In this document: positions 4,561 to 25,139 of the stretch, piece by piece | Layout of the letters: each line of letters begins with the position of its first letter | Position numbering within the stretch: the stretch's first letter is position 1 | DNA from: a virus | DNA: 29,402 bases | Direction: 5' to 3' (one strand) | Virus record (IMG/VR): IMGVR_UViG_3300012351_000023 | Span: 1 to 29,402 of that record | Program-made: the position numbers and the translations under genes | Notes under the pieces: generated by a model | The model's input: only the letters and a program-made list of their open reading frames with translations | Databases searched by the model: none | Told to the model about the DNA's origin: nothing

Positions 4561-5565
4561 TCTTTGGCTACCGATGCCTTAATCAAAAAGGCTACCAGTG
4601 TCGCCAACCTCCAGGCGCTCATCCCCCAAATTTGGGCGTCACTCATGGAGCTCAACCTGCGTCGGCGTGCAGTACTTGAGCAATCCCTCCTGGTGAACAC
4701 TGACCTCCTCGTTCCGGGAGCGGGTGATAAAGTCTACATCCCCGCATTGCCGGATATCGTCGCTGCTGATGCATTGACAGAAGGCACCGACCAGACCCCA
4801 TACGCCATCTCCAACGCCGCCTCGGTCTCCCTCACCCCAGCCGAATTTGGGAAACTGGTTGAGGTCACTCGTAAGGCTCTCGACCGGATCAAATACGACG
4901 GTATGGTGGCCCTCATTGATCGCCTCGCCTACGCTATGAGCATCCGTATCGAGACCAACATCGCGGCTCTCTACAACCAGACTGCCAATGCGGGCCTGCC
5001 TAACTCGCAATCCCCATTCGGTGGCGCAACACTCACCACGATCCCCCAGCTTTACCCGGGTGGACATACCAGCGCAAATATCGTGGCCGGTGATGTGATG
5101 AGCGCGGATATGCTCTCCCGTGCGGTTGCAAAGCTCCAGCAGTATGACAACGTGCCTTTCCCGGATGGCAACTACTGGCTCTTCCTTTCCCCCGACGCCT
5201 TCCAGTCCCTCATCATGGATGCCAATATCCGCCAGGACTTGCGGTATGCGGCACCTGAGCGGCTGTTGAATGGCGACCAGGGTGTGGTGTACGGTGTGCG
5301 CCTGATCCTCTCCAATTACCTACCCGGTGCGACCGGTAACACGGCCATTGGTGAGGGTGCAGGTAGTGCGGTCAACGTGGTGAAGAACATCATGGTGGCT
5401 CCGAGATGGGCAGCTATCGCATACAAGAGACGCCCTGAAGTGATTGTGGACCCAACGCTCTATGACTTGGGACGCAGACGCAGGTTCGGAGTCCTTGCCG
5501 ACTTCGATATCCAACTCTTGCATCCAGAGCGCGCGGTTATCCTGACAGTAGCCAAGGTCTTCTAA
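4558..5565 (+). CDS. Major capsid protein (HK97 fold, N4-gp56-like family)
   Basis: 335-residue protein, expected to form the capsid lattice. The N-terminal helix (residues 1-45) is followed by a beta-rich E-loop-like part and the segment ALTEGTDQTPYAIS leading to AEFGKLVEVTRKALD, a layout typical of the N4-gp56 capsid family. The C-terminal half contains WLFLSPDAFQSLI, a strand with NYLPG and the closing VIVDPTLYDLGRRRRFGVL. There is no long N-terminal delta domain, in keeping with a separate scaffold-like gene just upstream. The best-supported start is the ATG at 4558 with GGAG nine bases away. The Pro- and Ala-rich codon choice favours C-ending codons, as expected for a highly expressed gene. 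Confidence 0.87.
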   Translation: MSLATDALIKKATSVANLQALIPQIWASLMELNLRRRAVLEQSLLVNTDLLVPGAGDKVYIPALPDIVAADALTEGTDQTPYAISNAASVSLTPAEFGKLVEVTRKALDRIKYDGMVALIDRLAYAMSIRIETNIAALYNQTANAGLPNSQSPFGGATLTTIPQLYPGGHTSANIVAGDVMSADMLSRAVAKLQQYDNVPFPDGNYWLFLSPDAFQSLIMDANIRQDLRYAAPERLLNGDQGVVYGVRLILSNYLPGATGNTAIGEGAGSAVNVVKNIMVAPRWAAIAYKRRPEVIVDPTLYDLGRRRRFGVLADFDIQLLHPERAVILTVAKVF

Positions 5566-5571
5566 TAGCAG

Positions 5572-5600
5572 CCTGGAGGGGGGCATCATACCTCTCCAGG
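5572..5600 (+). other. RNA hairpin between capsid and connector genes
   Basis: CCTGGAGGGG (5572-5581) can pair over ten positions, including one G-U pair, with CCTCTCCAGG (5591-5600) around a nine-base loop. It begins six bases after the capsid stop and its right arm runs into the purine stretch that serves as ribosome binding site of the next gene (ATG 5609). No T-run follows, so it is not a typical intrinsic terminator. It could protect the 3' end of capsid mRNA or mask the next gene's ribosome binding site, lowering its expression relative to capsid. Confidence 0.6.
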
Positions 5601-5608
5601 GGGCTTGA

Positions 5609-6292
5609 ATGGCTTGGACAACTCAGGCATATTGCACACGCGCCGATGTGAAGTTGGCCCTGGACCCCAACCTGGGCAGCACGGATGACCCATTTATTGA
5701 TGGGCTTATAGTGGCTGCTCAGGGTGATCTGGATGCGGAGATTGGATATTCCTTCCAACAAGATGGCACCTCGGGCACGCCAGCTATACGCACCTATGAC
5801 GGGATTGGAGAGGACTTTCTGGCGATTGATGACCTCGTATCCCTCTTCAGCACAACCGCTGGGGCCGTGTTCGAGACCGCAGTGAATAGTTCCCTTTCCA
5901 GCGGCGGTATATGGATCAGCGGCACACCAGTCACCACGGATATAACGGCGGACATTATCCTGAAGCCAAACAACTATGCCGCCTATGGGATATCCGCCAG
6001 GAAGATGACCAGGAATAGTGGGCTGGCGTTCGTTAAGGGCAACCAGAACTACATGGTGAAAGGCATCTTCGGGCAACCCATCGTAGCAGGACAGACCTAC
6101 CCCGGTGTGCCCAATGACATTAGCCGGGCCTGCATCCGTCTCGCCATCTTCTACTACAAGATGCGGGACACCAACTATGCAGACCTCGTACAGGAGCAGG
6201 GCGGGGTTAGGGAGAAGTTCCTGAAGACCTGGCCGATGGATGTACAGCGCATTGTCCGTAAGTATGCACGAGTAAGGTTCCTGACCAGATAG
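5609..6292 (+). CDS. Head-tail connector / adaptor (HK97 gp6-like)
   Basis: 227 residues, first gene after the major capsid protein, the usual place of the adaptor ring that docks under the portal. The N-terminus YCTRADVKLALD followed by a helical segment with DDPFIDGLIVAAQGDLDAEI matches the helical start of gp6-like connectors, and the C-terminal DISRACIRLAIFYYKMRDTNY helix completes the alpha bundle. The middle (about residues 50-130) is a beta-rich insertion. A downstream GTG gene follows after nine bases. Assignment is by order and helical pattern. Confidence 0.7.
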   Translation: MAWTTQAYCTRADVKLALDPNLGSTDDPFIDGLIVAAQGDLDAEIGYSFQQDGTSGTPAIRTYDGIGEDFLAIDDLVSLFSTTAGAVFETAVNSSLSSGGIWISGTPVTTDITADIILKPNNYAAYGISARKMTRNSGLAFVKGNQNYMVKGIFGQPIVAGQTYPGVPNDISRACIRLAIFYYKMRDTNYADLVQEQGGVREKFLKTWPMDVQRIVRKYARVRFLTR

Positions 6293-6301
6293 GAGCAGGC
6301 T

Positions 6302-6757
6302 GTGGAAGTAGGCTCGGTAGAAATCATCGCTGGGACTGGCCTCATCATCCACGTCGATCTGTGGGCGACTATAGATGAACAACTCCACGAACACACTCCA
6401 GAACTTGGTTTGGGCTTACAGGAGTTGGTCATCCAGAGAACCCCATTTCTGACAGGCGCTTTGCAGGCAGATATCCAATACGAAGCCTATGAGAGTCCTG
6501 GTGGCTACGGTATGGAGGGGTCGGACCTTGTATACGTATACGCGGCCAACATGGAACAACTCCTGGCCTGGGCGCGTATCTATGCACCATACCAGGAGGG
6601 TGGCCCGCTCGGACTTCCCACGTACACGAACGACCCACGGGAGATGTTCTACTTGACCGCGAAAACCGATGGACTTGCGCTCGTCGAGACCTGGGGCAAC
6701 TACTACGTGAACGTGGCCCTGGGGATGTGTGCGATGGGTGTTGGAGTACCATTCTGA
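6302..6757 (+). CDS. Head-tail joining / tail completion protein (HK97 gp10-like)
   Basis: 151 residues with a GTG start at 6302 preceded by AGGAG at 6291-6295, six bases away. The segment VIQRTPFLTGALQADI followed by a beta strand and WARIYAPYQEGG resembles gp10-like neck proteins, in which an RTP-x-x-TG-x-L motif precedes strands and a YAxyxEGG turn. It would act at the neck, joining capsid connector and tail. The context (second gene after capsid) agrees. It could alternatively be called a minor capsid protein. Confidence 0.62.
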   Translation: MEVGSVEIIAGTGLIIHVDLWATIDEQLHEHTPELGLGLQELVIQRTPFLTGALQADIQYEAYESPGGYGMEGSDLVYVYAANMEQLLAWARIYAPYQEGGPLGLPTYTNDPREMFYLTAKTDGLALVETWGNYYVNVALGMCAMGVGVPF

Positions 6758-6793
6758 CATGAAGCGTACCTAATATGGTACAGGAGGATAGAT

Positions 6794-7012
6794 ATGCCAC
6801 TTTGTCAGGTTTGTGGTGTGAATATGACCGTTAGTGAGGTGACTCAGCGACGGGATCAGGTGGTGGGTAATTGGCACTACAACTGCGCCTACCTGGACTA
6901 CCTACTCGATAATGGAGAGCCGGCGGGTACGGATGGTTGGTTGAAGACGATCATCTGTGCCAAGCAGAAGCTAGCAGACAAGTACAACGGTGTCGCTAAT
7001 GAGTTCCCGTAG
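6794..7012 (+). CDS. Small Cys-rich protein, putative zinc ribbon half
   Basis: 72 residues, preceded by a strong AGGAGG (6781-6786). CQVCG at residues 4-8 and HYNC at 28-31 give a CxxC...HxxC pattern able to bind one zinc ion; a further Cys occurs in TIICAKQ. I do not recognise the family. It sits between neck genes and a beta-rich structural protein, all in one orientation. A nucleic-acid-binding or assembly accessory role is possible but unproven. Confidence 0.6.
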   Translation: MPLCQVCGVNMTVSEVTQRRDQVVGNWHYNCAYLDYLLDNGEPAGTDGWLKTIICAKQKLADKYNGVANEFP

Positions 7013-7020
7013 GGGGTACT

Positions 7021-7383
7021 ATGAGCCTACATTCTAAGTTACATTCGCAGGCCACTATCACCGCCTCTGGTAGCTCTCCAGTCTTCAAGAACCCGAGAAG
7101 CAAGCGACATCTCCTCTCTGTGGCAATAGCTTCTGCTCCAACGGGTACGGCCCCAACGCTCCTCTTTGCTGTGATGGTGAGTAATGATGGGGTAACGTTT
7201 GCTCAGAAGGGTGCTGCTCTGTCCTCACTCAGCGCAGTAGGCAACCAGAGGACGCAGTATGGCGCGGGGACTACTCAGGGGCAGATCACGGAGGCATTCA
7301 TACGGATCGACTGGGCTATTGGTGGCTCCGCGTCCCCCACGTTCACCAATGTAAGCACGTACTTCACAGGATTGGATTGTTAA
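7021..7383 (+). CDS. Beta-rich structural protein, paralogue of the two at 9422 and 9893
   Basis: 120 residues with an AGGGGG ribosome binding site. From residue about 35 it reads as a beta sandwich: APTGTAPTLLF, then VSNDGVTFAQKGAAL, AVG and TTQG. The same order of short signatures (TGTxP, a DxG-x-F turn, GAA(L/I), AVG or AAG, TTQG, then a strand ending in a hydrophobic tail) occurs in the proteins at 9422-9856 and 9893-10291, so the three are probably homologues. The likely role is a virion decoration or tail-tube accessory protein. The stop TAA is directly followed by the next ATG. Confidence 0.68.
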   Translation: MSLHSKLHSQATITASGSSPVFKNPRSKRHLLSVAIASAPTGTAPTLLFAVMVSNDGVTFAQKGAALSSLSAVGNQRTQYGAGTTQGQITEAFIRIDWAIGGSASPTFTNVSTYFTGLDC

Positions 7384-8421: not shown

Positions 8422-8542
8422 GGTCTTATGGGGGGTTTGGTGGTGTCTCTATCTCCTTTTATTAATCGGTTTCTTTCCTCAAGTTGCAGATTTTGGGTTG
8501 CACTACCGTTTTAGGCTCTCAACCCTTTTAGTAAGTACATAG
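8411..8542 (+). CDS. Possible 43-residue membrane peptide (TTG start)
   Basis: An ORF from TTG 8411, overlapping the kinase stop, encodes a Trp- and Leu-rich hydrophobic stretch (WWCLYLLLLIGFF) followed by a basic tail. An AAGGGG lies about ten bases upstream. Its last 40 bases run antisense to the 3' end of the GIY-YIG gene. The LIGF codons are identical to those in two other membrane segments of the window. It could equally be leftover intergenic sequence, so this is a tentative call. Confidence 0.22.
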   Translation: MGDEVLWGVWWCLYLLLLIGFFPQVADFGLHYRFRLSTLLVST

Positions 8543-8862
8543 TTGTTGCATGATGCTTTGTTGGTGAGGTTATCGAGACCATAGATGTTGATGCGTTCAC
8601 ATTCTACTAGGAAAGCAAGTTTGCGGTCTCTTGTAGCGAAAACGACGGTATAGATGATGTCCTCGTTGTTCACCAAGATGCTTGCAATAGTCCTGTTCTT
8701 CTTGTCCATGAAGCCACCCTTCGGCCATATTGAATACTTTTTTAGGTAGCGGCGCACATCACTCTCGTGTTCGTACTTTCTGGCACGATTACCAGAGCCA
8801 ACATAGAAAACATGACCATCTGGTTCTAACAGTTCGTAGACCTCATAGACTTCTTTTTGCAT
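8503..8862 (-). CDS. Free-standing GIY-YIG endonuclease
   Basis: 119 residues on the reverse strand, the only leftward gene in the structural block. The first strand YEVYELL and second strand HVFYVGSG stand for GIY and YIG, followed by an Arg in GNRARKYEH and a Glu in FLVECERINIYGLDNLTN, matching the catalytic Arg and metal-binding Glu of the family. There is no recognisable DNA-binding module, so it resembles minimal GIY-YIG homing enzymes of phages. It lies between the kinase and the tail terminator, with its own promoter and a leader shared with the HNH gene at 17535. Codon use is AT-rich compared with its neighbours. Probably a mobile intergenic homing gene. Confidence 0.82.
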   Translation of the reverse strand: MQKEVYEVYELLEPDGHVFYVGSGNRARKYEHESDVRRYLKKYSIWPKGGFMDKKNRTIASILVNNEDIIYTVVFATRDRKLAFLVECERINIYGLDNLTNKASCNNYVLTKRVESLKR

Positions 8863-8863
8863 A

Positions 8864-8890
8864 GCGAACTCCTCTACTACCCAAAAGTAC
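8864..8890 (-). repeat. Copy A of the 27-nt endonuclease leader
   Basis: On the reverse strand the 27 bases upstream of the GIY-YIG start (GTACTTTTGG at the 5' end, AGTTCGC at the 3' end) are identical to 17504-17530 upstream of the HNH gene. The repeat contains AGAGGAG, the ribosome binding site, six bases from this ATG. Confidence 0.9.
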
Positions 8891-8915
8891 CAAACACGTA
8901 TTCAATTCTCTACTT

Positions 8916-8945
8916 ATTATACCACATATTGTAGAGACCAGGCAA
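8916..8945 (-). promoter_or_regulatory. Sigma-70-type promoter of the GIY-YIG gene
   Basis: Reading the reverse strand: TTGCCT (8945-8940), an 18-base spacer, and a perfect TATAAT (8921-8916). The transcript would begin near 8909 and carry a leader of about 47 bases including the shared 27-nt element. It points away from, and sits close to, the ribosome binding site of the divergent tail gene at 8962. Confidence 0.7.
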
Positions 8946-8961
8946 CAAAGAGAGGTGTAAA

Positions 8962-9411
8962 ATTCCGGGGCCGTACTCACCATCAGATACCATCATTGGG
9001 CCAATAGCCAACGCCATAGCAAGCCTCATCACCACACAAATCCCTTCCATCGTTAAGGTCTACCCTACCCTGACTGATCGCACTCCCGGGGATAATGCTG
9101 TTGTGCTCAGGTTCACCAGGGGCAGGGTTACGGACGAGACCAGCGGGAAGGTGCGGATACTTCTGACCTACACTATGCAGCACCTATTCCGCCGCACAGA
9201 GGTAGCCGACTCCTTGCTCCGGGCCTATGCATATGTCGTGCCATGGCTGCTATTTCTCGCGGCAGTGCCAAATCAGGCTCTCGGAGGTCTGGCAATCTCA
9301 ATAACTGCAACCGACCTCGCTACCACGCAGCTTTCCGTATCCGGACAGCCAGTAGTCGCGCTGGTAGTCGATTTCAACGTACACACGGAGTTCAACATAC
9401 CGCAGACATAG
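8962..9411 (+). CDS. Tail terminator / tail completion protein, probable ATT start
   Basis: 149 residues if started at ATT 8962. The frame is open from 8935, with no ATG, GTG or TTG before GTG 9103. That GTG would remove a helix-rich N-terminus (IIGPIANAIASLIT) that fits the fold and lies in the middle of a strand. GAGGTG at 8952-8957 is placed four to five bases before ATT. The core strands VVLRFTRGRVTD, GKVRILLTYTMQHLF and PVVALVVDFNVHTEF, and the place between neck genes and major tail gene, suggest the ring protein that caps the tail tube. Family assignment is by order and strand pattern, not by motif. The upstream intergenic space has been occupied by the GIY-YIG gene. Confidence 0.6.
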   Translation: MPGPYSPSDTIIGPIANAIASLITTQIPSIVKVYPTLTDRTPGDNAVVLRFTRGRVTDETSGKVRILLTYTMQHLFRRTEVADSLLRAYAYVVPWLLFLAAVPNQALGGLAISITATDLATTQLSVSGQPVVALVVDFNVHTEFNIPQT

Positions 9412-9421
9412 GAGAAGGTAC

Positions 9422-9856
9422 TTGGCAATTGGAAGAGTAGAACAAATCTTAGGGAAGGCCAGCCTCATCGCCGCTGTTTCCGGGGCAGTATCCACGATGT
9501 CACAGGCTGGGCAACTCAACGGCCTGACCTTCCTCAGCAGGCAAATAACGATCAGCACGGAGCCTGGTTGGGTGCTGCTCTGTCGAATGGAGACGGCACC
9601 AACAGGCACGACCCCCGGCATTGTGTGGGAAGTAGACCTCTCCGATAACGGCGGTGCCTTCACCAGGGTCGGGGCTGCAATTGCTGCACAAACGGCAGTA
9701 GGGGCGTTGGTGGTTCCATACTACACATCCTCCACGCAGGGTCTAATCATCCCCTCCTTCAACGCCACGCACACGTATGTAGTCCAGGTCAAGGGAGTGC
9801 TGGCTAATGCAGATAACGTCTTCCCCAGCGTATCAGTAGACCTCATAGCAATCTAG
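9422..9856 (+). CDS. Beta-rich structural protein, paralogue 1 of a tandem pair
   Basis: 144 residues, TTG start at 9422 with AGGAGAAGG upstream. After an N-terminal helix with VEQIL it carries LTFLSRQI, TGTTPGIVWEVDL, a DNGGAFTRVGAAI turn, STQG and NADNVFPSVSVDLIAI. The next gene repeats this order closely (LTFLSKLI, TGTTPGIIWELD, GAAI, TTQG, NADNLSADVSVDLIAI), so this is a tandem duplication. The location between terminator and major tail protein suggests a tail-tube decoration or an adhesion protein. Function unproven. Confidence 0.72.
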   Translation: MAIGRVEQILGKASLIAAVSGAVSTMSQAGQLNGLTFLSRQITISTEPGWVLLCRMETAPTGTTPGIVWEVDLSDNGGAFTRVGAAIAAQTAVGALVVPYYTSSTQGLIIPSFNATHTYVVQVKGVLANADNVFPSVSVDLIAI

Positions 9857-9892
9857 CAGCCGCATATAGCTTCATATGTGCATGGGAAAATA

Positions 9893-10291
9893 ATGTCACT
9901 TCAAAGACAGGAACAGATACTCCTCCACGAGGTCCTCACCCCCGCCGCGACAGGCATCGGACTTACCTTCCTCTCCAAACTAATCCCCTATGGTGGCGAG
10001 GCTGGCTGGATATTGGTCGTCAGAAATGGTTCGGCTATCACGGGCACCACTCCTGGAATCATATGGGAACTTGATGCGACCACGGTGGCTGGCGGTGGCT
10101 CGGGCATGACTCGTGTTGGTGCTGCAATAGCTACCTTCGCTGCGGCTGGGGTGCAGGTGACTCCTTACTTCACAGGCACCACACAGGGAGCAATCGGCAG
10201 CACGTCCACATTCATCCAGGTCAAGGGCACAATTGGCAACGCAGATAACCTCTCTGCTGATGTCAGTGTAGACCTGATCGCAATTTACTAG
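9893..10291 (+). CDS. Beta-rich structural protein, paralogue 2 of a tandem pair
   Basis: 132 residues from ATG 9893 (GGGA six bases upstream); an in-frame GTG at 9878 lacks a ribosome binding site. The sequence parallels the preceding gene throughout, including EQIL near the N-terminus and NADNLSADVSVDLIAI at the C-terminus. Relative to its partner it has a Gly-rich loop extension (TTVAGGGSGM) and a shorter late loop. The stop codon is followed at once by the GGAGGTG that serves the major tail gene, so expression of both is probably linked. Confidence 0.7.
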   Translation: MSLQRQEQILLHEVLTPAATGIGLTFLSKLIPYGGEAGWILVVRNGSAITGTTPGIIWELDATTVAGGGSGMTRVGAAIATFAAAGVQVTPYFTGTTQGAIGSTSTFIQVKGTIGNADNLSADVSVDLIAIY

Positions 10292-10301
10292 GAGGTGTGA
10301 T

Positions 10302-11540
10302 ATCGGGATTAGCAAGAAATCCTGGACTGGAACGGCTAAAGAGTCAGTATCCGGGACCGCCATAACTGTGCCCACCAAGTACATTCCAACCAAGACCGTC
10401 TTCAAGGGTGGTAAGAAGCGTGAGTACTTGATGGAGGAGCGCGGAGACAGGAACGGGAAGTATGGCGTGGTGGATTCCGTGCGTCAGTCAGCCATAGAGA
10501 TGAAGGGTCCATACTACAACGACGTATCCCCGATCATGCTGTGGGGCGGAATGGGACTCCCTTCATCGGCCCAACCAGACTCCGTGAACCTGCCCTCCGT
10601 CTGGAAGCACACCTTTCAGCTACAGGAAGTGCCACCGAGCTATACGGTGCAGAGAAACCTGGACACGAAGGACTACTACGTGCCTTACGGAGTGGTGGAG
10701 AAATGGATACTGCACTTCACTGCTGATGGGAAGCTGCTGGAACTAGACTCGAATTGGGTGGGCCTCTTCGCACAGCCGAATAACTCCCCACCAACCGCCA
10801 CCTACTCGACCCTCCTCCCATTTGCCGGGTATGCACCAACAATCAAGTTCGTGGATGGTGCGGTGAGTCAGGACATATCCGACCTCCAGATTGAGTACTC
10901 ACAGAAAATCACGCTCTGGTATCCGGCGAACGGGACCCAGGACTTCATCACGGTCTACTTCGGTGAACGTGACATCATGGTGGACTTTACCGCACGCTTC
11001 GACACCACCACAATCTATGACCGCTGGCGCAATAACGTGATGGACTCCCTAACCTTCGATGTGCAGGGGCTAAACATAGGCAAGACCTTTGTAGTGACTC
11101 TTGGAGCACCATCAGCGGGTACGTTCACTTTGACATACAACGGCCTGACGACAGCGGGCATCTCATTCAACGCTACCGGGGCCACAGCGCAGACAGCCTT
11201 CCAGTTGCTCGCTAGTGTTGGGGCCAATGCAACTATCACGGGTGCAGCAGGCGGTCCATACACGGTGAGCTTCCTGGGGCCGCTGCTGAATGACGGACTT
11301 GCGCTGACCGGCTCTGGTGCTGGTCTGACTGGTGGTACGTTCTCAATCGGCGCTCAGGTCAACACCTTCCAGGAACTCAACATGGTGCTCCCAAACCTAT
11401 CCTACGATACCGTGGAGCACGACACCACGAAGGACAATGTACTCATTAAGGCGAAGGGTACGGTGGTTGTGCCTCAAGGTGCGGCGCTCATCTCGGGGTT
11501 CGTCCAGAATACAGTGCCCAACACAGGATATACGACGTAA
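10302..11540 (+). CDS. Major tail protein with inserted Ig-like domain, probable ATC start
   Basis: 412 residues if started at ATC 10302, or 390 from GTG 10368. A perfect GGAGGTG (10291-10297) lies five bases before the ATC, whereas the GTG has none; the intervening codons GISKKSWTGTAKESVSG read as a normal N-terminus. The following KYIPTKTVFKGGKKREYL and DSVRQSAIEMKGPYYNDVSP segments are typical of major tail tube proteins. Bases about 11070-11360 encode an inserted beta domain (GTFTLTYNGLTTAGI, then NATGATAQTAFQLL, TITGAAGGPYTVSF), a module common on phage surfaces. After it the tube fold resumes with LPNLSYDTVEHD. It overlaps the chaperone gene (TAATG). The domain would project from the tail shaft. 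Confidence 0.72.
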   Translation: MGISKKSWTGTAKESVSGTAITVPTKYIPTKTVFKGGKKREYLMEERGDRNGKYGVVDSVRQSAIEMKGPYYNDVSPIMLWGGMGLPSSAQPDSVNLPSVWKHTFQLQEVPPSYTVQRNLDTKDYYVPYGVVEKWILHFTADGKLLELDSNWVGLFAQPNNSPPTATYSTLLPFAGYAPTIKFVDGAVSQDISDLQIEYSQKITLWYPANGTQDFITVYFGERDIMVDFTARFDTTTIYDRWRNNVMDSLTFDVQGLNIGKTFVVTLGAPSAGTFTLTYNGLTTAGISFNATGATAQTAFQLLASVGANATITGAAGGPYTVSFLGPLLNDGLALTGSGAGLTGGTFSIGAQVNTFQELNMVLPNLSYDTVEHDTTKDNVLIKAKGTVVVPQGAALISGFVQNTVPNTGYTT

Positions 11541-12004
11541 TGCCAATAGAAGAGTTTGTAGAGGCAGTGAGAGAGAAGATGGAAGAGACAGTAGAGCGGT
11601 TCATTTGGTCTGACTACTCCTCGGACGCAGCGGATCGAGGGGTGGAGACGACGGTTACGTGGCGGGGGCAAACTATCCCGATCCGTGTGAAGCGTGCCCT
11701 GACCATAGACGAGCGGCAGAAGGCGAACAAGGCGGCTATCCAGATCGACCTGGACAAAGATGGAAAGCCCACCATCGTCAAGCAGGACCAGTCGGCGTAC
11801 ACAAAGATGGTCTGCCTACTCGGTCTGAAGTTTTGGCCCTTCGAGTACTCACCAGGACAGCCCGTACCGATTAACATGAAGACGATATCGGAGATGGACG
11901 GCGGCTTGCTTGACGAAATCTCCTTCCGCATCCTCCAGGGCACGAAGCCGCCGACAAAGGCAGAGCTTGACCCTTTAGAGAGTCCGTCCGAAGAAGCCTC
12001 CTAG
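11540..12004 (+). CDS. Tail assembly chaperone, short form (gpG-like)
   Basis: 154 residues between major tail protein and tape measure, the fixed position of the G/GT chaperones that coat the tape measure before tube assembly. N-terminal acidic helices (EEFVEAVREKMEETVERF) are followed by a strand pair (VTWRGQTIPIRVKRALT) and an alpha/beta body. The gene starts inside the preceding stop (TAATG) and ends TAG at 12002-12004. The adjacent -1 frame is open across its end, giving the long form through slippage at 11971-11977. Sequence similarity to lambda gpG is not evident; the call is from position and the frameshift arrangement. Confidence 0.78.
   Translation: MPIEEFVEAVREKMEETVERFIWSDYSSDAADRGVETTVTWRGQTIPIRVKRALTIDERQKANKAAIQIDLDKDGKPTIVKQDQSAYTKMVCLLGLKFWPFEYSPGQPVPINMKTISEMDGGLLDEISFRILQGTKPPTKAELDPLESPSEEAS
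11971..11977 (+). other. -1 ribosomal frameshift slippery heptamer CCCTTTA
   Basis: The sequence fits XXXYYYZ and is read C-CCT-TTA in the zero frame; slipping back one base gives CCC-TTT. It lies immediately after a TGA (11968-11970) in the -1 frame, so it is the first place where the shift is possible. Six bases downstream, CCGTCC (11984-11989) can pair with GGACGG (12011-12016) to form a stimulatory stem. Confidence 0.75.
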
Positions 12005-12333
12005 CTGGTGGGACGGCCAGGCCAGAGATAGACATATACTCCTTCGCCTTCCGGTACTCCTGCTACTCCGAGTTCCATTGGACCTATGACGAGGTAGGGC
12101 GGCTTCCAGAAGAGGAGGCTCTCTACTTGGCCGTTGTGTTCGAGGAGACGGGTGCGTACCAATACAAGAAGAACAAGGAGGCAGAGCGCGGTCAAGGTGG
12201 TGGGGCTTCAGGTGGGGTGGGTCTCAAGGAAGGCTTCGAGGAGACCTTCAGCTTTGGGGAGGATGACACAAACGACTACTGGCAGGGCACTGATTGTGAT
12301 GATTGTGCAGACCCAAGAGATATGAGCACTTAG
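11971..12333 (+). CDS. Tail assembly chaperone, frameshift extension (gpT-like part of gpGT)
   Basis: The -1 frame is open from 11971 to the TAG at 12331-12333 and contains no ATG or GTG start; the first alternative start is TTG 12127, in the middle of a conserved-looking segment. Slippage at CCCTTTA would fuse codons 1-146 of the upstream gene to 118 more codons, giving about 264 residues. The extension begins RESVRRSLLAGG, contains the aromatic YSFAFRYSCYSEFHWTYDEV typical of T-like domains that contact the tape measure, and ends in a Gly-rich linker and an acidic tail. It ends 13 bases before the tape measure start. Confidence 0.72.
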   Translation, partial: PFRESVRRSLLAGGTARPEIDIYSFAFRYSCYSEFHWTYDEVGRLPEEEALYLAVVFEETGAYQYKKNKEAERGQGGGASGGVGLKEGFEETFSFGEDDTNDYWQGTDCDDCADPRDMST

Positions 12334-12346
12334 ATAGGAGACACGC

Positions 12347-15127
12347 ATGGGAACCAGCACTGCTGAAATTGGCATACGTGTCTTCATGGATGATGCTGCC
12401 TCCAAGATAGCCTATGGGATCAACCAGCAGCTAGGTCAGATGGAGTCTCTTACGCGGCGGGCGGGGTTGGGCTTTCGTGGTATGGGCAAAGATATGGCTG
12501 GTCTCTCCATAGTGGCCGGACTTATTGCTGCTTTCCTACTCTTCGGTGGTGCCATCGTCTACTCCACGGACCAGGCAGCCAAGCTACAAACAACCATGAT
12601 TGGACTCAAGGCGGCTACCGGGGCTACTGATGCACAAGTCCAACAGATGCAGAACACCTTACTGACCCTCGGTGCTACGTCTATCTTCAGCCTGGATGAG
12701 TTAGCTCAGGGTTTCACGTTGGCTGGACAGCGGGGTGTCAGCGCTGGGGATATCATCAAGTACGTCGGTCAGCAGGGCATCTTTCTGGCAGAGGCTATTG
12801 GTGTGAAGCCCGTTGCTGCCTTCGGTCTATTGGCAAGTGTGCTGGCTGCTTTCAATCTACCAGCGAGCCAGGCAGGTAAGGTAGCCGACCTTCTCTTCTT
12901 CGCTTTTGAGCACGGAGTTCCAAGTGTAAGTCAACTCACTGCTGGCCTGGGTAAGCTCGGTTCTGTTGCTGCCATCTTACATGTCCCGCTCGATCAGATC
13001 ATCCCTGCCTTTGATGTGGTGGCACGTGCGATGGGTTCTGGTACTGTGGCTGCAACCGGGCTGTACTTCTTCTTGAAGCAGATAAGCGCGGGTACTCCAG
13101 CATTCAGAACAGAAATAGCTAAGCTGGGGCTGTCCTTCTATGATTTGAATGGTAAGTTCATCGGCCTGATACCTTCTTTGGATGAACTATACAAGAGACT
13201 CAAGAGCAGCACCCCACATGAAGCCGCCATCATCCTCCAGGCACTATTCGCTCAACGGTCTAGCCAGAGTCTCGCTATTCTGCTCCAAGACCTCTCGAAG
13301 TTTGATACTCTAGTCAAGCAGCTAAAGACCTCGCACGATGCTTACCACACAGCACTAGCTCAGGCGAAGAAGGCGGAAGACTCACTTGCTGGATCGACCG
13401 CAGCCCTCAAGACGAACCTGACGGACTTTGCTGCCCTGGCTGGTGGCCCACTTTCCACAGCCCTCACTCCCGTAGTCCAGAATATCAATAAATTCGTATC
13501 TACGCTGCGGGATATGGCCGCGAGTAACCCCAAGGCCTTCTCATCTATCATGTTAATCGGTGCGGCTCTGGCTGGGTTGGGTTTGGTGGTGGCTATTGCT
13601 CTCTCCCCATTCGCCTTACTCATCGGGATCATGGTCGCTGTGGTCGCTATTGTGGCTGGGCTGGCTGCGGGAATTACCTGGCTTACGGGTAACTGGTCCA
13701 AGGTAGTGTCCGCTGTACACCCGGTCATTGCAATATTCCAACAGCTGGTCTCCTTCCTTGGTGGTATATTCGGGCCGGTATTCCACGAGGTCATGGGTGG
13801 GATGGGCAGTGACACCGGGATAATCAAGCAACTAGCCGCAATTGTTAGTAGCACTCTAATCCCTGCCTGGCATAGTATGGTTGCATCTATCCAGACAGCC
13901 ATGCCAGCAATAATTATGGTGGCGAAGATTATTGGGGTCCTGCTTGGTGGGGTCCTGCTCTCCCTTGTAGCTATCATTTCCTCTGTGGTGGTTGGTATCA
14001 TACATGCTCTGGCCTATGTAATAACTGGTGTGGTCATGATCGTATCCGGCATTATTACGGCGTTCATGGGCTTGATCCAGTTCATTACGGGCTTCATTCA
14101 GATATTCCAGGCAATCTTTCTGGCACTCACCGGGCATAGCAAGCAAGCCTCTGCCATGCTCCAGGCCGCATTCCACAACATGGTCGAGGGTGTTACAAAC
14201 ATGTTCAAGGGCATGTTCCTATCGATCGTGGGCATACTCGTCGCTTCGGTGGGGGCCATACTTGGGTTCTTTGGTGGACTTGTGAGTGGTATAGTTGCCT
14301 GGTTCCACAAGTTGGCAGCTATGTTGATTGGGCACTCCATCATCCCAGACATGCTGACTGCAATCCTAACTGCCTTCGTGACCTTCTTCGCAAACATAAT
14401 CTCCGGTATCGCCGCCTGGGTTGCTCACATAATCTCAGTAATCATAAACTTCGCAACCGCCATGCTGGTGCATATCCGAGCGGTAATAACCATGATCCGG
14501 GTTATATGGCAAAATGGATGGAATGCACTTATTGCTCTGATTGTCGCCTTTGTAGTTGGTGTGATCGTGCATATCCTCGTACTCAAGGCCCAGGCACAGG
14601 CGAAGTTCAATGAGGTGATGACCAGCATACACACGGCGATCACCACAGGCATTTCCAAGGCAGTTCAATTCTTCAAGGACCTCCCTGGCAAGATCATCTC
14701 CGCTCTGTCTATCCTGGGAACTATGCTGTTCAACGCTGGTAAATCTGCTCTCCAGAGGTTTCTCGATGGGATTAATAGCATAATTCAGAATATAAAGAAT
14801 GCCATTGGCGGTATAGTCCAGTGGATATCTGACCACCTGCCGCGCTCTCCAGCCAAGATGGGACCACTGAAGGACCTGGACAAGACGGGGCCAGCCTTCA
14901 TAAATGAGATAGCGAAGGGCATAGAGTCGGGAGCACCTAGACTTGAACTGGCCCTCAATCGTGCTACAGGCGGCATGTCTTCTATTCCCGTCCGGGCTGG
15001 TGGGGGCTACGGTGGTGGGACTGCTACCTATAACCTCATACTTGAAGGGCGCGTGCTAGGCTCCTGGACGGTCAACTACATCACCGGGCACCTACAGATG
15101 AATGGGATGGGGAGGATGTTGCGGTAA
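12347..15127 (+). CDS. Tape measure protein
   Basis: 926 residues with an AGGAG ribosome binding site. It sets tail length and is ejected with the DNA. The N-terminus has the core found in TP901-type tape measures (residues about 65-330: STDQAAKLQTTMIGLKAATG, then the SIFSLDELAQG and KPVAAFGLLAS region). From about residue 400 it becomes hydrophobic, with many closely spaced transmembrane-like helices over about residues 400-790, then an amphipathic helical end and a Pro/Ser-rich SDHLPRSPAKMGPLKDLD motif that is frequent near tape measure C-termini. At the usual 0.15 nm per residue the tail would be roughly 140 nm, an estimate only. The TAA overlaps the next ATG (TAATG). Confidence 0.93.
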   Translation: MGTSTAEIGIRVFMDDAASKIAYGINQQLGQMESLTRRAGLGFRGMGKDMAGLSIVAGLIAAFLLFGGAIVYSTDQAAKLQTTMIGLKAATGATDAQVQQMQNTLLTLGATSIFSLDELAQGFTLAGQRGVSAGDIIKYVGQQGIFLAEAIGVKPVAAFGLLASVLAAFNLPASQAGKVADLLFFAFEHGVPSVSQLTAGLGKLGSVAAILHVPLDQIIPAFDVVARAMGSGTVAATGLYFFLKQISAGTPAFRTEIAKLGLSFYDLNGKFIGLIPSLDELYKRLKSSTPHEAAIILQALFAQRSSQSLAILLQDLSKFDTLVKQLKTSHDAYHTALAQAKKAEDSLAGSTAALKTNLTDFAALAGGPLSTALTPVVQNINKFVSTLRDMAASNPKAFSSIMLIGAALAGLGLVVAIALSPFALLIGIMVAVVAIVAGLAAGITWLTGNWSKVVSAVHPVIAIFQQLVSFLGGIFGPVFHEVMGGMGSDTGIIKQLAAIVSSTLIPAWHSMVASIQTAMPAIIMVAKIIGVLLGGVLLSLVAIISSVVVGIIHALAYVITGVVMIVSGIITAFMGLIQFITGFIQIFQAIFLALTGHSKQASAMLQAAFHNMVEGVTNMFKGMFLSIVGILVASVGAILGFFGGLVSGIVAWFHKLAAMLIGHSIIPDMLTAILTAFVTFFANIISGIAAWVAHIISVIINFATAMLVHIRAVITMIRVIWQNGWNALIALIVAFVVGVIVHILVLKAQAQAKFNEVMTSIHTAITTGISKAVQFFKDLPGKIISALSILGTMLFNAGKSALQRFLDGINSIIQNIKNAIGGIVQWISDHLPRSPAKMGPLKDLDKTGPAFINEIAKGIESGAPRLELALNRATGGMSSIPVRAGGGYGGGTATYNLILEGRVLGSWTVNYITGHLQMNGMGRMLR

Positions 15128-16770
15128 TGGCATACTCGATCACGCTGGCAGGTCAGGACATCACGCTACATGTAGACCAGCTAACCGTTGAGATAGAGGA
15201 CACCTTGGGGCAGGGGTCCGGGGCTGGGTCCTCTGGTGGCACACAGGGCAGGGCGGCTACGATCAAGTTCAACACCGACCTCGGACCTATGAATACCGCC
15301 GTGGGTGCGGGGCAGGCCATACCGCAAAGGACTACCAGCCCAGCCATCGTGCCGCGCATCTTCGGGGGGCCAATCACCGGGCTCCCCATCATCACCCTCC
15401 ATGCTGACCCATCACTTGTTAGGCAGGGAGAGATCGTTGTCATAGACGCATCGGGGGCCATTGTATTTGGTGGATTTGCGACGAAGTACACGGACACCAC
15501 TACCTCTGTTATCGGGAATACCAGACGGAACTTCACGACCGTTGAAGGGGTAGACTACTCCACCAGCCTGCAACGGACCATCGTGAATGAGACCTTTGTT
15601 GGGCAGACAGATATCCAGATCATCCAGTTCGTTATGAGTAAGTACGCCCCCTGGATCGACCTGACCTTCCTCCCCACAAACGCCTCCTTCACCTTCGCTG
15701 TGAAGAACTTCAGGAACGTGTCCGTGGAGCAGGTATTGCAGACCATCGCGGGGATTACCGGCTTTATCATCTTCGTGGACTACCAGAAGTTCTTGCGCTA
15801 TGTCTCTCCCAATTCGGCTAGCTCTGCACCATTCAACCTGAGTGACCAACCAGACTTCGTGTTGACGTTCCCACATGCTGTCACGGAGTTCCTACAGGAC
15901 GACAACTCTATTATTAATCGGGTCTTCTTCTATGGTGGAACGAGGACCAGCAACAACTTCACGCAGGACGTATCTACGCTTGCGAATGGGAACAATACGA
16001 CCTTCCCACTAGCCTACCACCCCCTCGTTACCACTGATGGGCTGTACCATGTCCTCGTGAATGGCACGGAGCAGGTGGTAGGTAGGGCAAACGCACCTGG
16101 TCCGGCTAATACCCTCAAGAGTGCTGGTGGCCTTGCTGATGTGCTCATCGACCAGAGTGCTGACACCGCAACCTTCAACGTGGCACCGGCTGGGGGAGCA
16201 ACTGTTCTGGTCAAATACCGTTACTCCTTCCCACTCTCCCTGGTGGTTACTGATGAGACTAGCCGTAAGTTCTTCGGGGGCTACTTCGATGGCTCCATCT
16301 CGGACAACACTATCTTTGACGTGACCACAGCCATCCAGCGCAGCAAGGTCCTTCTCTCCCAGCAGTCATTCGGGCTGATTTCTCTCAAGATCGATACCTA
16401 CCAACCAGGCATCCAGTCGGGCATGCTGATCCATGTAGTCAACGCGGTAAGAGGGATCAACGCGACCTACCTCGTACAGAATGTGGTGGTGGACCCCTAC
16501 GGCAGCGGCAAGTTCATCTTCCACCTGACCCTAGGTGCGTGGGATTGGAACCTGATCGACTTCCTGCTCAAGCTCCCAGCCATCGTGCAGCAGGACACCA
16601 ACCCGGATGAGGTGACGGAGTTCGTGGTCCTCCAACAGCTTCTCGCCAACGTACAGGTACAGGATGCCTGGACGCATACATCAACAACGCCGGGTGGGTA
16701 CTGTGCCCATGCGTCGGTATTAGGAGACGGACATGACGCCTACCCAGGATTTGCTACGATCACAACTTAG
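15127..16770 (+). CDS. Tail hub / tail-associated structural protein
   Basis: 547 residues directly after the tape measure, starting in its stop codon. A beta-rich N-terminus with a Gly/Ser loop (residues 30-45) is followed by GEIVVIDASGAIVFGGF and a middle domain (NVSVEQVLQTIAGITGFIIFVD) resembling the hub fold of gp27/gp44-type proteins. The C-terminal part includes KIDTYQPGIQSGMLIHV, a segment common in phage tail hub proteins. It probably forms the ring at the tail tip that holds the fibres. The last 38 bases overlap the next gene. The family call is moderate; location and beta content are firm. Confidence 0.62.
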   Translation: MAYSITLAGQDITLHVDQLTVEIEDTLGQGSGAGSSGGTQGRAATIKFNTDLGPMNTAVGAGQAIPQRTTSPAIVPRIFGGPITGLPIITLHADPSLVRQGEIVVIDASGAIVFGGFATKYTDTTTSVIGNTRRNFTTVEGVDYSTSLQRTIVNETFVGQTDIQIIQFVMSKYAPWIDLTFLPTNASFTFAVKNFRNVSVEQVLQTIAGITGFIIFVDYQKFLRYVSPNSASSAPFNLSDQPDFVLTFPHAVTEFLQDDNSIINRVFFYGGTRTSNNFTQDVSTLANGNNTTFPLAYHPLVTTDGLYHVLVNGTEQVVGRANAPGPANTLKSAGGLADVLIDQSADTATFNVAPAGGATVLVKYRYSFPLSLVVTDETSRKFFGGYFDGSISDNTIFDVTTAIQRSKVLLSQQSFGLISLKIDTYQPGIQSGMLIHVVNAVRGINATYLVQNVVVDPYGSGKFIFHLTLGAWDWNLIDFLLKLPAIVQQDTNPDEVTEFVVLQQLLANVQVQDAWTHTSTTPGGYCAHASVLGDGHDAYPGFATITT

Positions 16771-17449
16771 GGTACGGGTGGATTGGGTCCTCAAGGAGCA
16801 TCAGGGTGGCCTGTGGGTCCCCATTCACAGGTTCCATAATCTCGTGACCAACTTCGGATTGACCGCACTCGCACAGGCTCCGGGTGGCTTATATGCACCG
16901 CCGATATATCTCGTCATTGACACAGCCTCAACCACTGTCTCGCTTGGTGGTAATCCCGGTGATCCAACCATCCAGTTAGCGGCTGATCCCACACTGACCG
17001 GCGATACACAACTCGTACTCTCTCCAGGGGCAGCAGGCCAGGAGACTGTGACCTTTTCATCAAAGTCCTTCGGTCCACCCTTCACCTATACTCTGGTAGG
17101 ACTCCTGGTGAACGCACATCCACTGAATGACTTGGTAGTGAGGGGGCCTACGATACTCGACACGATATCTTCCGTAGTTAGTGAGGCACAATACGACCCG
17201 ACCTTCAACCCGAATAAGCGAGCTACCCTAACCGCCTCATACTCCCCCGGTCTCGGACAGGGCACCATGCAGTTCTTCCTATCGGGGCTGACAGCAACCA
17301 ACCTGCTTTTCGCACATGTCGGGCTGGCAGATAAGCAGACTATCGGTGTGGGTGGAACGAACCTGCACAACTACGCTGCGCTCGGATACAACCACAACAA
17401 TACCAACGATGTGGAGATTGACGTGACTTACACGATGCAGGTCTTCTAG
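16733..17449 (+). CDS. Minor tail protein
   Basis: 238 residues, starting in the end of the hub gene with TAGGAGAC upstream. The first 45 residues (WVLKEHQGGLWVPIHRFHNLVTNFGL) resemble the short attachment segments of phage tip proteins; the remainder is strand-rich with Gly/Asn turns (GGNPGDPTIQLAADP) and a Gly/His/Asn-rich closing GYNHNNTNDVEIDVTYTMQVF. It probably sits at the tail tip. I recognise no catalytic motif. It is the last gene before the HNH insertion. Confidence 0.6.
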   Translation: MTPTQDLLRSQLRVRVDWVLKEHQGGLWVPIHRFHNLVTNFGLTALAQAPGGLYAPPIYLVIDTASTTVSLGGNPGDPTIQLAADPTLTGDTQLVLSPGAAGQETVTFSSKSFGPPFTYTLVGLLVNAHPLNDLVVRGPTILDTISSVVSEAQYDPTFNPNKRATLTASYSPGLGQGTMQFFLSGLTATNLLFAHVGLADKQTIGVGGTNLHNYAALGYNHNNTNDVEIDVTYTMQVF

Positions 17450-17453
17450 GGAA

Positions 17454-17484
17454 TTACCTGATGCATTCTAGTGTTCTCTACTAT
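17454..17484 (+). promoter_or_regulatory. Candidate promoter of the HNH gene
   Basis: TTACCT (17454-17459) and TACTAT (17479-17484) with a 19-base spacer, four matches of six at the -10. The element begins with the same TTxCCTG as the GIY-YIG promoter, and both precede the shared 27-nt leader, but the spacer is long and the -10 weak. Confidence 0.35.
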
Positions 17485-17503
17485 AGAGGTACATATGAGT
17501 TTA

Positions 17504-17530
17504 GTACTTTTGGGTAGTAGAGGAGTTCGC
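17504..17530 (+). repeat. Copy B of the 27-nt endonuclease leader
   Basis: Identical to the reverse strand of 8864-8890. It includes AGAGGAG, here nine bases from the HNH start, four bases further than in the GIY-YIG copy. It is non-coding in both places. Confidence 0.9.
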
Positions 17531-17534
17531 AACA

Positions 17535-18050
17535 ATGAGGAAGTGTGGTCGCTGCGAGGCTATGCATAACACCAAACATTACTGGTGCCTGGACTGTAGA
17601 AGTGCATACAACAAGGAGACACCAGAGGAGAGGGCACGGTGGAAGTCTCTCAAGAAGGTCGTGTCCAAGGAAGCAGAAGAGAAGAGGCAGCGAGAAAAGA
17701 ACAAGGAGTACCAGAGGAGGTATAGGGCAACGCTCCCCCCATCTCTTTGGGCAAGTAAGGTGAGCAACTGGAGAAGGATAGGAATTACTAATCCACCGGA
17801 AACAAGGGAAGAGTACGAGGAGTTAATTGCGGCTAACGAAGGGATTTGCCCTGCGTGCAGAAGACCTCCAAAGGGTGGAAAAGGGAATGGTTGGGCCTTA
17901 CACCACAACCACAAAACAGGGTTGGTCGTTGGTGTGGTTTGCTCCCGTTGCAACATGGGAATGGGCCAATTTGAGGATAATCCCGACCTACTAATGACGG
18001 TTGCCTTTTGGTTAGTTGAACAAGAGGAGCGCGAGGGGCTGTATGCGTAA
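17535..18050 (+). CDS. Free-standing HNH endonuclease (endonuclease VII-like)
   Basis: 171 residues. An N-terminal zinc finger (CGRCEAM then WCLDC, residues 4-21) is followed by a strongly basic helical linker and the catalytic module: CPACRRPP, ALHHNHKTG, VCSRCNMGMGQFEDNPDLL. The CxxC, HHNH-x-TG and CxxCN set is the hallmark of the recombination endonuclease VII family, in which two CxxC pairs bind zinc and the HNH residues bind the catalytic metal. The place between tail genes and the shared leader with the GIY-YIG gene suggest a mobile homing gene. Codon use is richer in A and AGG/AGA than in its neighbours. Confidence 0.88.
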   Translation: MRKCGRCEAMHNTKHYWCLDCRSAYNKETPEERARWKSLKKVVSKEAEEKRQREKNKEYQRRYRATLPPSLWASKVSNWRRIGITNPPETREEYEELIAANEGICPACRRPPKGGKGNGWALHHNHKTGLVVGVVCSRCNMGMGQFEDNPDLLMTVAFWLVEQEEREGLYA

Positions 18051-18070
18051 ACAAAAAAGAAGTAGAAGTG

Positions 18071-18079
18071 TGCTATACT
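18071..18079 (+). promoter_or_regulatory. Extended -10 promoter upstream of the tail fibre gene
   Basis: TGC followed by TATACT (18074-18079) matches the TGn extended -10 pattern with five of six -10 bases. No -35 is evident, which such promoters tolerate. The start site would be near 18086, about 17 bases before the ATG at 18103. It would restore transcription of the downstream tail genes after the HNH gene. Confidence 0.45.
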
Positions 18080-18102
18080 ATATAGGGAATAAGTAGAAGA
18101 CT

Positions 18103-23811: not shown

Positions 23812-24183
23812 ATGAGCGCCGAATTATTCCAAATCTTGCTCATCGTACTACCAATCGTACTCCCACCCCTTATCGCATTCCTCGTGGTATTGGTGAATAA
23901 AGAACTCGCCAAGCTCCCAGCCAACGTGCGTCCAGTCCTTGCTGATGTAGCGAAGGTCTCGGTTTCGGCTGTGGAACAAGTCGCGCAGTCTGAGCTAGGT
24001 ACGGCTGAGAAGAAGCAGAAGGCCCTCGCGTTTGCATCTGCTCAACTCGACCACCTCGGTATGAAGGTCCCAACGGATGTACTCAATGTGGTGGTAGAGG
24101 ATGCCGTATTCGCAGTGAAGCACGCGCCACCCATCGTCCTTGCCACCCCCGCTGCCCTACCGATTAATACCAAAGGAGCATAA
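23812..24183 (+). CDS. LLH-type phage holin
   Basis: 123 residues with strong AAGGAG. One N-terminal transmembrane helix (residues about 6-28, LLIVLPIVLPPLIAFLVVLV) is followed by a long amphipathic cytoplasmic part with VEQVAQSELGTAEKKQKAL, the V-EQ...GxxKKxxA signature of the LL-H holin family. It would form or time the membrane lesion that frees the endolysin encoded just upstream. The stop overlaps the next ATG (TAATG). Confidence 0.75.
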   Translation: MSAELFQILLIVLPIVLPPLIAFLVVLVNKELAKLPANVRPVLADVAKVSVSAVEQVAQSELGTAEKKQKALAFASAQLDHLGMKVPTDVLNVVVEDAVFAVKHAPPIVLATPAALPINTKGA

Positions 24184-25037: not shown

Positions 25038-25128
25038 CCGTGCCTTTTTCGCACCCATAGCTCGGTCATTCAGGCGGCTTCAGGACGATGCCGTGTGGTT
25101 TGCCGATTGGAGCAAGCGACCAAAGTAA
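25021..25128 (+). CDS. Possible 35-residue basic peptide
   Basis: ATG 25021 lies 17 bases before the end of the previous gene, and the TAA forms the start of the TAAGGAGG ribosome binding site of the next gene, so the ORF fills the gap exactly. The product is Arg/Phe/Trp-rich (SRAFFAPIARSFRRL), an amphipathic-helix pattern. Only a weak GAGTGG precedes it. It may be a real small protein or a reading-frame accident. Confidence 0.42.
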   Translation: MVRAFSRAFFAPIARSFRRLQDDAVWFADWSKRPK

Positions 25129-25139
25129 GGAGGGGGCAA

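Follow-up and report, generated by a model that had tools for sequence, protein, structure and literature searches.

Two unrelated nuclease genes of an uncultivated soil phage, one of the GIY-YIG type and one of the endonuclease VII type, are preceded by the same 27 nucleotides. The phage is represented by a 29.4-kb virus record, IMGVR_UViG_3300012351_000023 (29,402 nt; hereafter the window), a fragment that lacks most early genes. We suggest that the 27-mer belongs to a leader of two modules, used by free-standing nucleases, which was recently homogenised in the window by copying or gene conversion; we put the probability of this reading at about 0.52. The identity of the two sequences, their composite structure, their distribution and the insertion/absence polymorphism of both genes are directly seen.

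Relatives were retrieved from IMG/VR via capsid and terminase searches (protein identity 66–100%). Those compared here are L003, L005, L007, L008 and G004, a 63-kb contig that contains L006; the sequences of the group are all incomplete genomes. Their capsid proteins are 76–100% identical to that of the window phage, which makes the comparison feasible, and L003 matches the window at 95–97% DNA identity across long stretches. The features of the window on which the argument turns are these:

8864..8890, minus strand: 27-nt leader, copy 1 (exact match)
17504..17530, plus strand: 27-nt leader, copy 2 (exact match)
8891..8912, minus strand: 5′ extension of the common leader, gapless and of weaker identity (alignment of the window pair; the L005 and G004 leaders can be aligned here)
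17482..17503, plus strand: 5′ extension of the common leader, copy 2 (alignment of the window pair)
8864..8872, minus strand: start-associated sequence GGAGTTCGC, Shine-Dalgarno GGAG plus conserved spacer (same 9-mer 5′ of ordinary-gene starts in G004)
17522..17530, plus strand: start-associated sequence GGAGTTCGC, copy 2 (same 9-mer basis)
8880..8895, minus strand: nuclease-associated box GTTTGGTACTTTTGGG (motif and weight-matrix scans)
17499..17514, plus strand: nuclease-associated box GTTTAGTACTTTTGGG (motif and weight-matrix scans)
8503..8862, minus strand: gene of a LEM-3-like GIY-YIG nuclease (119 aa), running antisense to the late operon (PF22945, 5e-11; phrog_5356; L005 homologue 61% identical)
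17535..18050, plus strand: endonuclease VII-type gene, 171 aa (PF02945, 7e-16; phrog_2914, 4e-23; matching site empty in G004)

How close is the match? The 27-mer, GTACTTTTGGGTAGTAGAGGAGTTCGC, ends 1 nt 5′ of the GIY-YIG ATG and 4 nt 5′ of the endonuclease VII-type ATG, and the window holds no third copy even when up to three mismatches are allowed. Gapless similarity continues to 49 nt at 84% identity (8864–8912 against 17482–17530). The expected number of copies in shuffled sequence is 0, and by our own arithmetic a chance pair of 27-mers in 29 kb has a probability of ~5e-8. Chance is excluded as the origin of the identity. On these points an earlier sequence-only reading, which had described the same 27 bases before both genes and a match length beyond chance, was right. 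An upstream small open reading frame was considered as a coding explanation and rejected, the leader-to-leader indels not being multiples of three.

The two proteins are indeed unrelated, as that reading had also held. The first scores above the cut-off of PF22945 (LEM-3_GIY-YIG), with its Y, E and N positions conserved in L005. The second, which had been called HNH, matches Endonuclease_7 (PF02945) and not a generic HNH family. Since it has HHNH in place of the usual DHDH motif, the first D being replaced by H, its activity as a resolvase is uncertain. Searches of IMG/VR with each nuclease as a single protein gave no confirmed match, and a search with a two-row GIY-YIG alignment returned L005 as its sole match.

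Both genes are polymorphic in presence and absence among the relatives. The GIY-YIG gene is missing at the matching site from L003, L007 and G004. L005 has its homologue (61% protein identity, same orientation) at a different spot ~100 bp away, beyond a TATTAATCGGTT element; both the promoter (TGTGGTATAAT) and the leader (ATTAGTACCTTTGGGTTGGGAGTTCACATTATG) of this homologue are related to the window ones. At the endonuclease VII locus G004 passes from the upstream stop to the downstream start in ~43 nt with no nuclease gene, so that the window gene would be an insertion, or its absence a loss in G004. The two genes are candidate free-standing homing endonucleases. Could either locus be an artefact of assembly, as the sequence-only reading had allowed? 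Both loci fall in stretches that are collinear in independent relatives, and in G004 this agreement covers the two flanks of each nuclease gene; an artefact, or a contig chimeric at these places, is therefore unlikely. Further nuclease genes occur in the group: two of the endonuclease VII type and one GIY-YIG gene in G004, and one endonuclease VII gene in L008. One of these, the G004 endonuclease VII gene at contig position 59069 (identified by its domain match), carries the leader, with TTGACT-17-TATACT followed by ...AAATAGGACCTTTGGGGGAGTTCGTAGATG.

At the GIY-YIG locus G004 keeps ATACGTGTTTGGTACTTT although the gene is missing, most simply a gene-less remnant of the leader, and for this reason the leader appears to be old there. 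Identity between the window and L003 is 90% up to 8480, 76% over 8959–9414 and 97% from 9409. Because its surroundings pass in this way from 90% through 76% to 97%, the GIY-YIG gene seems to sit in an exchanged patch; a low-identity patch adjoining the gene is as expected of nuclease-linked exchange.

The same locus shows three further peculiarities. The intergenic region filled by the GIY-YIG gene in the window holds, in the relatives, five perfect copies of the DnaA-box-like TGTGGATAA (DnaA-box consensus TTATCCACA; L003 4993–5132, L005 5359–5499, L007 8296–8436); the array is missing from the window and from the matching place in G004, and it is possible that it is a replication origin or a DnaA-titration site lost on insertion. 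In the structural gene at 8959–9411 the codon aligned to the L003 ATG is ATT (after AGAGAGGTGTAAA), and in G004 it is ATC; the gene may have a non-standard start, or one displaced by the adjoining nuclease leader. Finally, L005 carries an inserted 510-aa reading frame (5537–7069), which to the eye looks like a cellulase-type glycoside hydrolase; its neighbours on the two sides are the genes flanking the GIY-YIG locus. This intergenic region appears to be a hot spot for insertions.

Is the 27-mer a single element? Comparison with the relatives shows it to be a composite of a 3′ module, GGAGTTCGC, and a 5′ module, TRGKACYTTTGGG. The 3′ module occurs seven times in G004 against 0.37 expected, and six of the seven copies lie 0–4 nt 5′ of the start codons of genes without a nuclease match, one of which (a TTG start) is less certain. 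These sites read GGAG followed by a conserved TTC[GA][CT]. We take GGAGTTCGC to be a general start-associated sequence of this phage group, comprising a Shine-Dalgarno sequence and a spacer.

Apart from one remnant without a gene at the GIY-YIG locus, the 5′ module turned up exclusively 5′ of nucleases, namely the two window genes, the L005 GIY-YIG gene and the G004 endonuclease VII gene. A regular expression for the leader motif, run over ~180 kb of window and relatives, returned four sites, all directly 5′ of nuclease genes. With a two-box weight matrix the four leaders scored 31–36 bits, the next best site 17.6 and the shuffled maxima 14–17.5, a separation that is partly circular as the matrix was built from these four. 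When each leader was left out in turn, the L005 box ranked clearly, the boxes of the window pair and of G004 more weakly. The upstream box accompanies four of four nuclease starts with GGAGTTC and none of the six other GGAGTTCGC starts (Fisher p 0.005; p 0.018 for 3 versus 5, when the window pair is taken as one and the uncertain TTG gene is left out), and no ordinary gene in the 63 kb of G004 carries it.

How far does the leader reach? It was searched for with exact or near-exact patterns in IMG/VR, in 84,980 genomes (GTDB) and in isolated phages. An exact 22-mer and an exact 18-mer of the leader found nothing in IMG/VR beyond the phage's own records, and the isolated phages gave merely an 18-nt chance match. 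A gapped motif recovered L005, G004 and one chance match inside a coding frame in IMG/VR; the GTDB genomes gave 35 matches, nearly all inside reading frames. None of these 36 chance matches outside the group (1 in IMG/VR, 35 in GTDB) fronts a recognisable nuclease. An Rfam search of the window returned no match. The spread which the sequence-only reading had expected was thus seen within the group, in front of nucleases of two families, and, with these exact or near-exact patterns, not beyond it.

Why, then, are the two window copies identical? The spacing between box and Shine-Dalgarno sequence is 7 and 7 nt in the window pair, 3 nt in L005 and 0 nt in G004, and the leaders of these two relatives differ from those of the window and from each other. 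Both window leaders have the 7-nt TAGTAGA between the modules, where L005 has 3 nt of other sequence and G004 none. Because this segment is common to the pair and missing from both relatives, a recent common source is favoured over independent conservation. The two leaders, already akin, have probably become identical in recent time through copying or gene conversion.

On this account the 27-mer would be the terminal part of a 5′ untranslated leader, from which free-standing nuclease genes gain an independent translation start wherever they are placed. Its 3′ module would supply the group's start-associated sequence, a Shine-Dalgarno sequence with a fixed spacer that also serves genes not recognised as nucleases; its 5′ module, 0–7 nt further upstream, probably travels with nuclease genes or swaps between them. 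Such a start would serve a GIY-YIG gene antisense to the late operon and an endonuclease VII gene inside it. One window leader would have been copied onto the other, or have converted it, leaving the 27-nt identity. We infer recombination as the cause, translation as the function and mobility of the leader with its gene. A wider proposal is put forward tentatively, as possible rather than probable: that a short non-coding leader, with the start signal of the phage itself as its base, is a module exchanged between unrelated mobile nucleases (GIY-YIG and endonuclease VII types), from which newcomers gain a ready signal for translation and regulation.

Several points weigh against the two-module nuclease leader. 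Three nuclease genes, namely the G004 GIY-YIG gene, the second G004 endonuclease VII gene and that of L008, lack it, starting within operons or behind another leader. The sample is four leaders, two of which (the window pair) are not independent, and the motif was discovered with the very sequences that define it. Ordinary genes with the box could exist among the early genes that the window mostly lacks. No donor event was seen, and strong selection through a common regulator could likewise hold 27 nt identical. Of the mobile nuclease cassette proposed from sequence alone, what survives is the 5′ part, placed only in front of nucleases (two unrelated families, three phages, four loci), together with the apparent recent homogenisation of the window pair; the 3′ third, which in G004 fronts genes not recognised as nucleases, belongs to a general start signal, and the promoters are not shared.

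Might the leader instead, as the sequence-only reading had also allowed, be the target of one trans-acting regulator of both nucleases, its sequence kept by selection? Such a factor could be a protein or a small RNA and could come from the phage or its host. The box is conserved across phages despite divergence elsewhere in the leader, lies between promoter and Shine-Dalgarno sequence, fronts two unrelated families and in L005 forms a near-dyad, ACC-TTT-GGGT. However, its distance from the Shine-Dalgarno sequence varies, a common site would not need the identical 7-nt segment of the window pair, and the leaders have no RNA fold in common. We regard such a regulator as rather unlikely.

Less probable again is that the leader is simply the general translation start signal of the group, its link with nucleases being a sampling effect of a small data set made up mostly of late genes. 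The sequence-only reading had named a general phage leader as the finding that would count against it, and for the 3′ module this was found: GGAGTTCGC stands before six other G004 genes, at one of which the site, AGGAGTTCGCAACAATG, matches the start of the window endonuclease VII gene at each of 17 nt. But the box is absent from all six, and similarity over 27–49 nt far exceeds what a start signal needs.

What of the promoters and of RNA structure? Two further features bear on this:

8916..8945, minus strand: good predicted sigma-70-like promoter, TTGCCT-18-TATAAT with extended -10 (TG) (TGTGGTATAAT conserved in L005)
17471..17530, plus strand: predicted RNA hairpin pairing the endonuclease VII Shine-Dalgarno sequence in read-through transcripts (z -2.75, 0/200 shuffles)

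A promoter motif common to both nuclease genes was considered and dropped, the promoter regions not being shared. TTxCCTG before both genes had been read as a sign of one; in the endonuclease VII leader TTACCT lies 5 nt nearer than its counterpart in the GIY-YIG leader, and the positions equivalent to TATAAT read GTTCTC, so that neither the spacing nor the -10 is shared. Beyond the endonuclease VII stop, a promoter-like TGTGCTATACT lies before the next tail gene (18069–18100). The matching nuclease-free site of G004 has GGTATAAT, and insertion of the nuclease gene thus seems not to have deprived the downstream gene of a promoter of its own.

In T4-like timing, a hairpin in read-through RNA would mask the ribosome site, and translation would be confined to transcripts begun at the promoter of the gene itself. 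The window endonuclease VII gene is co-directional with the late operon, and its hairpin (-21.3 kcal/mol) is the single outlier among 31 window gene starts; the G004 endonuclease VII leader has a 9-bp pairing between promoter and ribosome site; and T4 and Aeh1 offer a precedent (PMC2988022). Yet the G004 endonuclease VII, window GIY-YIG and L005 leaders fold no better than shuffles (z -0.3, -0.4 and 0.5), shuffling of the upstream arm gave no support for a hiding hairpin across the four leaders, and the promoter within the hairpin arm is weak. A conserved RNA structure common to the four was rejected, as only the window endonuclease VII leader folds beyond shuffles. Since the other leaders lack the hairpin, it is not the reason for the common 27-mer; such timing would at best concern this single leader, and as an explanation of the pair it is very improbable.

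The group also carries dispersed repeats. The motif TATTAATCGGTT / ACCGATTAATA occurs in the window at 8460, 20125 and 25186 (plus strand) and at 24169 (minus strand, one mismatch) and throughout G004, with exact 11-mer counts of 4 (window) and 12 (G004) against ~0.1 expected; CCGATTAATA is the commonest 10-mer of the two sequences (20 copies). It lies on both strands, within and between genes, adjoins the GIY-YIG genes of the window and L005, and is found upstream of the leader-bearing G004 endonuclease VII gene. It resembles a repeated site for a regulator or for recombination. Also over-represented is the 10-mer GATGAGCTTA, with 11 copies in window and G004, often as ATTGATGAGCTTA. In the lysis-side region, 25095–28130 encodes a secreted-looking protein of 1011 aa, which contains a Phosphoesterase domain (PF04185, 6e-22) and linkers rich in Thr and Pro.

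How does the leader compare with known systems? What is known of the expression signals of newly landed free-standing nucleases comes mostly from T4, whose endonucleases each solve the problem in a way of their own. If the two-module reading is true, a leader common to unrelated nucleases, built on a general start-associated sequence, would mean that expression signals can themselves be modular. The present group is also a second phage group, unrelated to the cluster K mycobacteriophages, to have start-associated sequences; the paper on cluster K did not settle their role (PMC3203893).

The closest known kind appears to be these Start-Associated Sequences (SAS) and extended SAS of cluster K (Pope et al. 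2011, PMC3203893). Like them, the present sequence is short, asymmetric and conserved, combines a Shine-Dalgarno sequence with bases unable to pair with 16S rRNA a few nt 5′ of the ATG, is absent from most other phages and has a second conserved element just upstream at a subset of sites. The sequences differ (GGAGTTCGC here, GGGATAGGAGCCC there), and ours would be SAS-like in action without belonging to that family. The upstream elements differ as well: theirs are 17-bp imperfect inverted repeats, whereas ours is a TTTGGG box (TRGKACYTTTGGG) confined to nuclease genes, and no inverted repeat common to the four leaders was found.

PMC2988022, a review, describes expression signals of the homing endonucleases I-TevI, I-TevII, I-TevIII and segB of T4 and mobE of Aeh1, with hairpins that hide the ribosome site in read-through RNA for I-TevI, segB and mobE. 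As there, the nuclease genes here have their own promoters and leaders, and one leader has a predicted hairpin of this kind with a possible internal promoter. Unlike there, the hairpin is restricted to one leader, and the parts of the review consulted describe no leader sequence common to unrelated endonucleases. Nuclease genes are also known from genetic-exchange boundaries of phages, from HEG islands and from domain swaps (PMC10448857). The window resembles these systems in having a nuclease gene where the identity of close relatives changes abruptly and in the proposed exchange of modules between nuclease genes; it differs in that the piece exchanged would be a non-coding leader.

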